A stretch of DNA of 64,000 nucleotides from assembly GCA_017427465.1 (NCBI GenBank), contig JAFRST010000062.1:64703-128702 (forward strand), read 5' to 3'. The notes beneath the pieces were generated by a model. The model was not told where the DNA came from. It saw only the letters and a program-made list of their open reading frames with translations, and ran no database searches. Numbering within the stretch: the stretch's first letter is position 1; each line of letters begins with the position of its first letter. The position numbers and the translations under genes were made by a program. The DNA comes from Clostridiales bacterium (lineage in GTDB: Bacteria > Bacillota > Clostridia > Saccharofermentanales > Saccharofermentanaceae). Positions 1,209 through 4,055 of the stretch are shown here, one piece after another.

Positions 1209-2693
1209 TCACTCCGCCCCGAACTCAAAGCATTCGTCAGCCACGTTCTCGACGAAAACCTTGTCGTGCTCGACAAATAACATTGTTACATCGCTGTTTT
1301 TGACAAGGCGTTCGATCTCTTTTCTCATATAGACGTCGATGTAGTTCAAAGGCTCGTCCCAGAGGTAGATGTCGGCCCGTTCGCACAGTGACAGAGCGAG
1401 CATGACGAACTTTTTCTGGCCAAGGGAGAGCGCGTCGACGTCTCTATAGAGCATTTCTTTGGTAAAGCCCATCTTGACGAGGATCGTTGAGAACTGTGTC
1501 TTGTCGCAGCCGCGGTCATCAGCGATATCGTAAAGGCAACCGCGGAGCACGGACGTGTCCTGGCCGACATATGAGATCTTGAGGCCCTTGGCGATGTGGA
1601 TGTCGCCCGTAGCCGTGATGCAGGAGCCGCCTTCGTTCATGAGGGCCTCGTCGCCCGTCAGGAACTTGATCAGGGTGCTCTTGCCGCAGCCGTTGGTGCC
1701 CTGCAAAGATATCTTCTGGCCCTGGCCGACAGTCAGGTTGATGCCGCTTGCCACGGCCTCGCCGTCGCGCAGGACAGTAACGTCTTTTAAGATGACAGGC
1801 GTCTTGTCGTGGTGCGTGGAGCCGAAGATCTTCAGTGTCTGCTCGCGCTCGAGATCCTTTAAAAGAGACTGTTTCTCTTCTAATTTGCGCTCGTTGCGCT
1901 GCTCCAAGTTCTTGGATAAAGACATGAGCTTTTTGGCTTTCGCGCCTTCGTATGCGCGGGTCCAGTGATTCTGCGCGACCTTAGAGGGCGCATTCGCCCT
2001 GTTCTTGTAACTCTCGGCCTTCCCTGACCACTGGGCGTTCTTCTTCATGGCAGCTTCGATGGAGCCCATCTCTTTTTTGAGCTGGTTATTGCGCGCGAGC
2101 TCGGATTCCTGGCGCTGTTCGTTGTTCTCCCACCAGGTGCTGAATGTCGTGCCCACGAGCTCCACGCCGGACTTTGTGATGACCAGAGTATGGTCGGTGC
2201 AGCGGTCAAGGAACGCGCGGTCGTGAGAGATCAGAATGAAGCCTTCCTTGGACGCGAGGTACGATGCGACTGCCTCACGACCCTGTCTGTCCAGGTGGTT
2301 CGTGGGCTCGTCGATCAAGGGATAGATGCCGTCTCCCGCAAAAAGGTAAGCGAGCATCAGCTTGGTCCTCTCGCCGCCCGAGAGCGTGTCCATCGGGCGC
2401 CACATGATGTCGGGATCGGCGCCCATGAGATTTAATTCTTTTCGAACCTTCCACTCCTCACAATCGGGCAGTTCGTCCATCGGGAAAAGCACCGTCGGCG
2501 GTACGCCCGTGATCGTTCCCGCATGATCTAATTCGCCTCTTAAAAGTTTGAAAAAAGTAGTCTTACCGCGTCCGTTGCGGCCTGCAAGCGCAAGCTTCCA
2601 GGTAGTGTCGAGCGATATCGTGATATCGCTGAAAAGCATCTTGTCAGAGCCGTCGTATCCGAAGCTCAGGTCTTTGATATTGATCATTGGCAT
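1209..2693 (-). CDS. ABC-F ATPase, Lsa/Vga-like ribosome protection protein
   Basis: Encodes 494 residues with two ABC ATPase domains and no membrane segments, as in ABC-F proteins that act on ribosomes rather than transport. Walker A motifs are AGRNGRGKTT (residues 38-46 region) and GTNGCGKST. Signatures are LSGGERTKLMLA and LSLGQKKFVMLAL. Walker B regions are LIDEPTNHLD and WDEPLNYIDV. The degenerate second signature and the WDEPLNYID motif are typical of the antibiotic-resistance ABC-F group (Lsa, Vga, Sal) that removes pleuromutilin, lincosamide and streptogramin A drugs from the peptidyl transferase centre. A charged linker of about 80 residues lies between the domains. AGGAGG precedes the ATG. 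The leader upstream has attenuator features. A housekeeping translation-factor role cannot be excluded. Confidence 0.88.
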   Translation of the reverse strand: MPMINIKDLSFGYDGSDKMLFSDITISLDTTWKLALAGRNGRGKTTFFKLLRGELDHAGTITGVPPTVLFPMDELPDCEEWKVRKELNLMGADPDIMWRPMDTLSGGERTKLMLAYLFAGDGIYPLIDEPTNHLDRQGREAVASYLASKEGFILISHDRAFLDRCTDHTLVITKSGVELVGTTFSTWWENNEQRQESELARNNQLKKEMGSIEAAMKKNAQWSGKAESYKNRANAPSKVAQNHWTRAYEGAKAKKLMSLSKNLEQRNERKLEEKQSLLKDLEREQTLKIFGSTHHDKTPVILKDVTVLRDGEAVASGINLTVGQGQKISLQGTNGCGKSTLIKFLTGDEALMNEGGSCITATGDIHIAKGLKISYVGQDTSVLRGCLYDIADDRGCDKTQFSTILVKMGFTKEMLYRDVDALSLGQKKFVMLALSLCERADIYLWDEPLNYIDVYMRKEIERLVKNSDVTMLFVEHDKVFVENVADECFEFGAE

Positions 2694-2733
2694 AAAGATT
2701 CCTCCTAAACTGAATCTTCGCCGGATAAGCTTC

Positions 2734-2815
2734 GATTTATACTATTTAGTTCGCTTAGGTCCTCCGCGCTCGTAAACGAGCTTGTGCGGAAATCGCTCAC
2801 TAAACAGTATAAATC
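2734..2815. repeat. Long nested palindrome in ABC-F leader
   Basis: Arms GATTTATACTATTTAGT (2734-2750) and ACTAAACAGTATAAATC (2799-2815) match at 16 of 17 positions. Inside lie TCCGC/GCGGA and GCTCG-TAAA-CGAGC stems, so the 82 bp can fold into one long hairpin. It lies 40 nt before the ABC-F start codon, after the terminator of the leader. It may be part of the attenuator or a miniature dispersed repeat that landed there. Confidence 0.75.
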
Positions 2816-2854
2816 TCGTGGATCAGATTGACTTCTGATTAATCTGAAATTAAA

Positions 2855-2880
2855 TAGCCGCGGACAAAAAGCCGCGGCTA
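2855..2880 (-). terminator. Intrinsic terminator inside ABC-F leader
   Basis: The stem TAGCCGCGG / CCGCGGCTA (9 bp, perfect) has a loop of 8 nt. On the minus strand it is followed by a T-rich tract (TTTAATTT). It lies between the short upstream ORF and the ABC-F gene, where a resistance-gene attenuator would have it. It could also terminate read-through from the GH5 gene. Confidence 0.75.
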
Positions 2881-2942
2881 AATTATTCAAAGTAATATAG
2901 ATGAACACACAAAAAAGAACTTATCCGCGAGATATTAATAAA

Positions 2943-2963
2943 TCAGCAGACAGTCTTTCTCAT
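2943..2963 (-). CDS. Six-codon leader peptide MRKTVC of ABC-F gene
   Basis: An ATG at 2963 is preceded by a near-perfect ribosome binding site (AAGGAGG, 7-nt spacing) and reads MRKTVC before TGA at 2943. It begins about 30 nt after a good promoter and precedes the intrinsic terminator by about 60 nt. Leaders of this kind (upstream ORF, terminator, gene) control several ABC-F and Erm resistance genes by drug-induced ribosome stalling. That this one works so is inferred from the layout. Confidence 0.6.
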   Translation of the reverse strand: MRKTVC

Positions 2964-2997
2964 TGGTGTTCCTCCTTGTTCTTCAGATTCGTGTGTA

Positions 2998-3026
2998 ATG
3001 ATACAGCAAGCTTAAGAGAATTACAA
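2998..3026 (-). promoter_or_regulatory. Promoter of ABC-F leader transcript
   Basis: Minus-strand -35 TTGTAA (3021-3026) and -10 TATCAT (2998-3003, preceded by TG) are 17 bp apart. The -35 box overlaps the stop codon of the GH5 gene. Transcription would begin near 2991 and give a leader of about 300 nt. Confidence 0.75.
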
Positions 3027-4055
3027 TACGTCCTTAAGTCCGTTCTTGATCACGATATTCGCCGCGTCGGAGATGCCGTAATCAAGTCCCTTGTAATTCC
3101 AGAGTGCGCTTCCGATGCCATACTTGTGGAATACCGCATGGATGTCCTTGATCCAGCGAAGTGCGTCTTCCTTGGGTGCGAGATCGATAACGCCATGCTC
3201 GCCGCAGTACATGGGAATATCGTCTGCCTGTGCCTTTGCGATGGCGGGCGCGAAAATATCTTCAAAGAATTTCTCGCCGATCTCGCTGATGCCGTCAACA
3301 TAGATGGCGCCTGCAACGCCTGCATCGAGCTGGTCGCTCGCATCCCTGTATTCCTGAATGGTCTTCGGATATCCGATGCGGAAATCTTTGGGCATGCTCT
3401 CGATCCAGTGCGCGCCCTGATGTGTGAAGATCATGGGTTCATAGCAGTGGAAGTTATAGACGATATGATCGTCCAGAGGGACATTGATCTTTGCTACAGT
3501 CGTTACGCTGTTGTAGCAGACGCCGCCGACTACGATGTATGCATCAGGTGCGATGCTTCTTATGAGCTTAATGTATCTTGCGAGAAGGTCGTTCCATGCA
3601 TCAGCAACGTCTTCGGGAACAACCTCGTTAAGAGGTTCGAACGCTACATAAGATGTATAGTCCTTAAATCTTGTCGCGATCTCTGTCCAGAGCCTCAAAA
3701 ATCTTGCCTGAAGACCTGCATCGTAGAAGAAGATCCTCTTGTCTGCTTTGCTCATCGGATTGAATGAATAACCGAATGCTTCGTGAAGATCAATGAGCAT
3801 CTTAAGGCCGTACTTCTCGCACCACTTCCTGCAGTCTTCAAGATGCGCAAAGCCTCTTTCCTTGAAGTTGCCGTCCTCGTCTTCCAATACCATGTAATCG
3901 ACCGGAACGCGGACGTGGTCAAAGCCGAATTCTGCTATGTTCTTAATGTCTTCTTCGAGAATGTAAGTGTCGAAATGTTCTTCGTCATAAGTGCCGAACT
4001 GGGAGATCCAGCCACCGATGTTGACGCCGTTTCTGAAGCCTTCAAATGTGCGCAT
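3021..4055 (-). CDS. Glycoside hydrolase family 5, cytoplasmic
   Basis: Encodes 344 residues of a GH5 TIM barrel (cellulase/endoglucanase-like superfamily). Visible family marks are GVNIGGW near the start, HVRVPVDY, LIDLHEAFG, FEPLNEV carrying the acid/base Glu, and YCGEHGV carrying the nucleophile Glu. There is no signal peptide, so it probably acts on imported oligosaccharides or glycosides inside the cell. It lies 42 nt downstream of the flippase gene, with a TATAAT-like box in that gap (4090-4095), so it may have its own promoter. Substrate cannot be read from sequence alone. Confidence 0.88.
   Translation of the reverse strand: MRTFEGFRNGVNIGGWISQFGTYDEEHFDTYILEEDIKNIAEFGFDHVRVPVDYMVLEDEDGNFKERGFAHLEDCRKWCEKYGLKMLIDLHEAFGYSFNPMSKADKRIFFYDAGLQARFLRLWTEIATRFKDYTSYVAFEPLNEVVPEDVADAWNDLLARYIKLIRSIAPDAYIVVGGVCYNSVTTVAKINVPLDDHIVYNFHCYEPMIFTHQGAHWIESMPKDFRIGYPKTIQEYRDASDQLDAGVAGAIYVDGISEIGEKFFEDIFAPAIAKAQADDIPMYCGEHGVIDLAPKEDALRWIKDIHAVFHKYGIGSALWNYKGLDYGISDAANIVIKNGLKDVL

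Follow-up and report, generated by a model that had tools for sequence, protein, structure and literature searches.

The ABC-F gene and its leader

The window, a stretch of 64,000 nucleotides from a Clostridiales bacterium, carries on its minus strand a gene for an ABC-F protein that is preceded by a leader with several overlapping elements (Table 1). The promoter, the upstream open reading frame (uORF) with its ribosome site, the terminator, the second hairpin, the palindrome, the CGCGG element and the AGGAGG had been described in a first-pass annotation of the sequence, and each was recovered on the minus strand where that annotation had placed it. The hairpin SL-1 and the segment e are parts of the proposed switch that go beyond this description.

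Table 1. Positions of the ABC-F gene and of the elements of its leader in the window.
Feature	Position	Strand	Basis or remark
Upstream gene, 3' end overlapped by the putative promoter	3021-4055	-	
Putative promoter, TTGTAA-17-TATCAT	2998..3026	-	Pattern scan; -35/-10-like sequence at the same position in relatives
SL-1 hairpin (anti-antiterminator); encloses the uORF ribosome site, start codon and entire uORF	2899..2975	-	MFE folds, covariation, pairing probabilities
uORF ATG AGA AAG ACT GTC TGC TGA, MRKTVC and stop	2943..2963	-	Strong SD AAGGAGGAACACCAATG, AGGAGG ahead
Segment b CTCGCGGATAAGTTC, 3' arm of SL-1; alternative partners are the terminator 5' arm and e	2917..2931	-	Pairing tests
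CGCGG element, inside segment b	2925-2929	-	
AATTTAGCCGCGG, predicted to pair with b as antiterminator; overlaps the 5' arm of the terminator (t1)	2871..2885	-	Folding; -13.0 kcal/mol, p 0.035 in the window
Intrinsic terminator hairpin, 9 pairs, 7 of them G-C, tail ATTTAATTT	2855..2880	-	Pattern scan and covariation
Second hairpin	about 2823-2847	-	Without counterpart in L052 and L053
82-bp palindrome between terminator and e; 17-nt arms 2734-2750/2799-2815	2734..2815	.	
Segment e AGCTTATCCGGCGAAGAT, long-range partner of b	2714..2731	-	-18.9 kcal/mol with b in the window
Small hairpin AAGATTC/GAATCTT, ABC-F SD in its loop	2695..2718	-	Fold; similar hairpins in relatives
ABC-F SD AGGAGG	2701-2706	-	Precedes the ATG at 2693
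ABC-F gene, 494 aa, Lsa-like, ribosomal-protection type	1209..2693	-	NCBIfam profiles and structure match

The ABC-F protein scores 391.8 bits with the NCBIfam profile for ribosomal protection-like ABC-F proteins (NF000355, cut-off 380). Its nearest profile family is Lsa (NF000167), for which its 513 bits lie below the cut-off of 750 and thus leave it outside Lsa proper. A comparison with solved structures places Lsa(A) first (7NHK, E 6.9e-107), with the VmlR-type ExpZ far behind (E 7.1e-41). We label the protein a Lsa-like ABC-F because it passes the general profile, comes closest to Lsa at a score under the cut-off and has Lsa(A) as its nearest solved protein; judged by these matches, it is a probable ribosome-protection ABC-F of the antibiotic resistance type. 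Close relatives are found in MAGs named Saccharofermentans, Clostridiales and Ruminococcaceae, many of them of ruminant origin. The drugs countered by Lsa-type proteins are lincosamides, pleuromutilins and streptogramin A, a spectrum that by analogy may extend to the gene in the window.

Taken by themselves, the promoter and terminator patterns occur about as often as expected by chance (2 found and 1.2 expected, and 1 found and 0.5 expected, respectively), and the terminator tail of the window is poor, that of the near relative L052 being better with 7 U. The relatives carry -35/-10-like sequences at the promoter position, for instance TTGAC...TGTATCATCAC. The folded leader is far more stable than shuffled sequences (z -7.1), as is the part between 2995 and 2850, from which the palindrome is excluded (z -5.5). 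A scan against Rfam returned no family at gathering score in the window. Within the 3' arm of SL-1, the U-rich TTCTTTTTT (2911-2919, minus strand) agrees with TTNTTT, the NusG pause motif reported for vmlR; pausing at this site would allow SL-1 time to fold.

Conservation of the leader within the genus

Orthologues with upstream DNA were taken from 45 loci of the genus, 43 of them at 63-100% identity and two at 46%. Together with five further leaders this gave 50 leaders in all, which stem from gut and rumen MAGs of a Saccharofermentans-like genus. At each of the 45 loci a uORF is present, and its site reads GGAGGNNNACC[AG]ATG. In 44 it is six codons long and follows the consensus M[RK]xx[IV]C before the stop codon, the remaining one (L027) reading MKR and stop, and the five additional leaders agree with this pattern. 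The first-pass annotation, which had proposed a drug-inducible gene behind an upstream-ORF attenuator, had named orthologues without both ORF and terminator as one observation that would speak against it. No such leader was found: uORF and terminator are retained in 50 of 50, and both the terminator and the hairpin around the uORF covary.

The comparison also separates the core of the leader from its surroundings. The two closest relatives, L052 (98% protein identity) and L053, have neither the second hairpin nor the palindrome. Of the parts first assembled into an attenuator, the uORF, the terminator and the CGCGG element keep their place, while the palindrome and the 2823-2847 hairpin fall outside the switch.

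A covariance model built from 16 relatives, with the window left out, detects the leader of the window with a score of 94 bits (E 8e-23). When this model was searched against 148 genomes of the order, 43 of 53 genus members yielded the leader, each in a single copy, and outside the genus there was a single weak match of 25 bits. Several of the leader-less genus genomes also miss a close full-length ABC-F orthologue, and therefore the leader follows the gene. A search for plasmid-borne copies of the leader gave no match, and the model found no convincing counterpart in the leaders of Lsa-like genes at a greater distance (about 40% identity). It is the stability of the folded leader, the match to the model and the conservation among orthologues that lift the promoter and the terminator above chance.

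These data also bear on the simplest reading of the locus, namely that an ordinary terminator of the upstream gene is followed by a constitutive promoter and that the ABC-F gene is unregulated. The near-chance patterns and the overlap of the promoter with the end of the upstream gene would suit such an arrangement. However, in 50 of 50 leaders the terminator follows the ABC-F promoter and uORF, even where the sequence upstream differs, and SL-1 and the b-e helix covary, which leaves this reading with hardly any probability.

Two ABC-F paralogues of the same genus (L047 and L048, about 41% identity) are preceded by a three-codon uORF, MRR and stop, in a leader that the model does not match; they possibly represent a second uORF-controlled ABC-F type. 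In four species (L005, L009, L015 and L021) a repeated insert, GAAACACTGAT..CCTGACGCAC, lies downstream of e, ahead of the ribosome site of the ABC-F gene; the leader is apparently a hot spot for small insertions.

Compensatory changes in SL-1, the terminator and the b-e helix

RNAalifold on a first MAFFT alignment recovered only part of SL-1 and the terminator, and the linker was misaligned; this alignment was replaced by duplex tests on each leader and by the covariance model. For the covariation test we used 54 distinct rows in an alignment fitted to the structure, and both the fit and the relatedness of the rows favour the modelled structure. In this alignment, 97.6% of the cells of SL-1 and the terminator are paired. 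Changes on both sides affect 18 of the 31 SL-1 and terminator pairs, as against 2.3 in shuffles and 1-6 in slid controls, and 7 of the 8 modelled pairs when the terminator is considered alone. This covariation is strong, but it is not independent proof, because the fit favours the structure.

The long-range helix between b and e lies outside the covariance model. It is found in 50 of 50 leaders at -15 to -22 kcal/mol (median -20.2; median z -3.6; p<=0.01 in 41) and is formed by many different base pairs across the leaders. Native partners reach -19.8 kcal/mol versus -14.4 when partners are swapped between b classes. The helix is kept at distances between e and the terminator that range from 18 to 126 nt (window 126, L052 71, L044 56, L023 51). 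In contrast, the energy of b with the terminator 5' arm does not exceed chance in most leaders (median z -1.1; p<=0.05 in 9 of 50 only), and in the window this antiterminator extends to about 12 pairs. At the level of the aligned leaders, compensatory changes thus support SL-1, the terminator and the b-e helix, and b-t1 is consistent with them but weaker.

Predicted response to a ribosome on the uORF

Each of the 50 leaders was folded twice, once as free RNA and once with a ribosome placed on the uORF start codon; values below are medians. In the ribosome-free RNA, b is predicted to pair with the uORF (0.81), and t1 and e are unpaired with b. With the ribosome in place, antiterminator pairing between b and t1 rises from 0.00 to 0.79 in RNA that ends at the terminator 5' arm, and b-e pairing rises from 0.00 to 0.94 in the full-length RNA. 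Occlusion of the uORF, which had been suggested as a check of the attenuator, hence shifts b in the model from the uORF to either t1 or e. The same folds support the suggested anti-terminator function of CGCGG: the element is paired within SL-1 as long as the RNA is free of ribosomes, and once the uORF is occupied its predicted partner is the terminator 5' arm. A terminator with a complete 3' arm outcompetes the antiterminator at equilibrium, so that antitermination must rely on kinetics or transcription timing, a modelled dependence that resembles known attenuators.

In most leaders, b is predicted to be released whichever uORF codon the ribosome occupies. The two nearest relatives differ in that release is predicted only with the ribosome on early uORF codons, which, within the model, fits stalling at the start.

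The conservation of the uORF throughout the genus could alternatively mean that its product, M[RK]xx[IV]C, is a specific arrest peptide, a nascent chain that would respond to a particular drug or metabolite. The pattern of conservation makes this very improbable. Of the 44 six-codon uORFs, 43 have TGC as codon 6 and 42 have a codon 5 ending in TC, whereas all four Thr codons occur at codon 4, and the fixed bases are the partners of b in SL-1. L027 lacks a counterpart of the last three codons and still has SL-1 and the b-e helix; the uORF of L044 ends in Gly; and the predicted release of b is independent of the occupied codon in most leaders. The conserved end of the peptide is explained by RNA pairing with b, since the fixed bases are the b-paired bases. 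As far as the aligned uORFs tell, the peptide is probably not a recognition peptide, and reading by the ribosome tunnel need not occur.

A different division of labour is offered by translational attenuation, in which e or the hairpin at 2718-2695 would hide the ABC-F ribosome site, b-e pairing after stalling would uncover it, and the terminator would be secondary. The b-e helix is the strongest long-range pairing and forms only past the terminator; e is complementary to the SD region in L031, L039, L040 and L043; and cplR unites both layers (PMC10201436). With a stalled ribosome, accessibility of the ABC-F ribosome site rises in L027 (0.01 to 0.32), L042 (0.20 to 0.71) and L044 (0.21 to 0.51). 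On average over the 50 leaders, however, it stays at 0.40 to 0.41, in the window it falls from 0.84 to 0.47, and the terminator is maintained by compensatory changes. Because mean accessibility is unchanged, the folds give no support for a translational layer in most members, among them the window, and we regard a mainly translational mechanism as unlikely. A general role of e as an anti-SD element, suggestive by eye in several relatives, was likewise discarded on the unchanged average.

The leader as a probable ribosome-sensing attenuator

We propose, with a probability of roughly four in five, that the leader is a ribosome-sensing transcription attenuator of the ABC-F gene of the VmlR type. 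The uORF, SL-1, the terminator and the b-e helix are evident from the aligned leaders, and the switching upon ribosome occlusion is predicted by the folds. When no drug is present, the first ribosome would quickly complete the six-codon uORF, whose RNA would then pair with the segment behind it; SL-1 would trap b, the terminator would form and transcription would stop. A drug acting on starting or early-elongating ribosomes would hold the ribosome on the uORF and thereby block SL-1, the expected inducers for a Lsa-type protein being lincosamides, pleuromutilins and streptogramin A. The freed b would pair with the terminator 5' arm to form the antiterminator, and RNA polymerase would continue into the ABC-F gene. 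After transcription of e, b may shift to the stronger b-e helix, which we infer to keep b off SL-1 and, in some relatives, to uncover the ABC-F ribosome site.

This plan has well-studied precedents. In B. subtilis, a ribosome stalled on the uORF (MIN) of vmlR prevents the anti-antiterminator, which permits the antiterminator and read-through (PMC9226507). The leader of the window resembles this system in its short uORF within an SL-1 anti-antiterminator, a predicted stalling-dependent antiterminator, an intrinsic terminator and a later hairpin near the ribosome site of the gene (PMC9226507); the vmlR model in which pairing of the read-through RNA relieves the hairpin near the ribosome site (PMC9226507) may have a counterpart here. 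The two differ in that vmlR combines MIN with a VmlR-type ABC-F, whereas here M[RK]xx[IV]C precedes a Lsa-like gene and, of the long-range pairings, the long b-e helix with its covariation has the best support.

The cplR leader of C. difficile, with the uORF MR[I/M], likewise has its uORF in a 5' hairpin, a terminator and an antiterminator that forms upon stalling (PMC10201436), but its terminator hides the cplR SD, whereas the terminator here lies well upstream of the SD. The nearest characterised protein is that of lsa(A) from Enterococcus faecalis, a gene that is also preceded by a short uORF (PMC10201436); there the published consensus is MAGN (that of VmlR2 being MK[L/Q]; PMC10201436), and the likeness is one of protein and uORF presence, with the protein described here below the curated Lsa cut-off.

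The attenuation logic has been established by experiment for vmlR (PMC9226507) and cplR (PMC10201436). That the window leader follows the VmlR/CplR plan with another uORF and another ABC-F group is well supported, and drug induction, a defining feature of this type, would be expected. The switch logic is already known from Bacillus and Clostridioides, and what is new is this example rather than the kind of switch. It would extend drug-inducible ABC-F control to a Lsa-like group of uncultured ruminant-gut Clostridia, and the about 50 natural leader variants make the RNA switch unusually easy to test. The uORF also illustrates that RNA pairing, rather than the peptide, can cause conservation of a uORF peptide, which calls for caution in consensus-based uORF searches.

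A more speculative extension, which we put forward tentatively and consider possible though rather doubtful, is a genus-specific attenuator in which b has three successive partners: the uORF, the terminator arm and a downstream "lock", e. The lock would act as a latch after read-through, regardless of its distance from the terminator and of foreign hairpins lying in between, of which the window gives an example. If true, a latch arm of this kind, better conserved than any other long-range pairing, would constitute a variant absent from the descriptions of vmlR and cplR (PMC9226507, PMC10201436).

A dispersed palindromic element

Among the leaders examined, the palindrome is present in that of the window only. 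Its core, GGTCCTCCGCGCT..GCTTGTGCGG, has 7 copies in this genome. Across the genus, 46 of 85 genomes contain it, at 1-9 exact cores per genome, and another genus of the family has it too; the reversed core, used as a control, gave none in the same searches. The copies considered are that at 2734-2815 of the window, L108-L143, and those on contigs C8, C12, C18, C48, C55 and C56 of G000. A role as part of the attenuator was ruled out, as the palindrome is missing from the nearest relatives and has further copies in the genome; it is a dispersed element outside the attenuator.

The core is constant, and the outer arms of about 15-22 nt are specific to each copy and complementary within it (median -21.8 kcal/mol for native versus -11.0 for swapped arms). 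An inserted core, inverted copying of the flank or a 3'-end RNA may account for origin or role. The 3' ends of a guaA-like gene (L150-L173) have the same arms in some species, different arms in L150, L167 and L168, and a plain terminator in others; they were rejected as empty palindrome sites, the closest relatives carrying the palindrome at the same site.

Many palindromes start at the stop codon of the upstream gene in the same orientation (L108, L111, L112, L116, L128, L131, L141 and others), others lie directly behind tRNA genes (L110, L115, L132), and at both kinds of site the palindrome arm runs into the end of the gene. Tandem palindromes sometimes occur, with three in L126 and two in L137. 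In apparently orthologous copies, such as L109 and L127, the arms have changed on both sides and their complementarity is kept.
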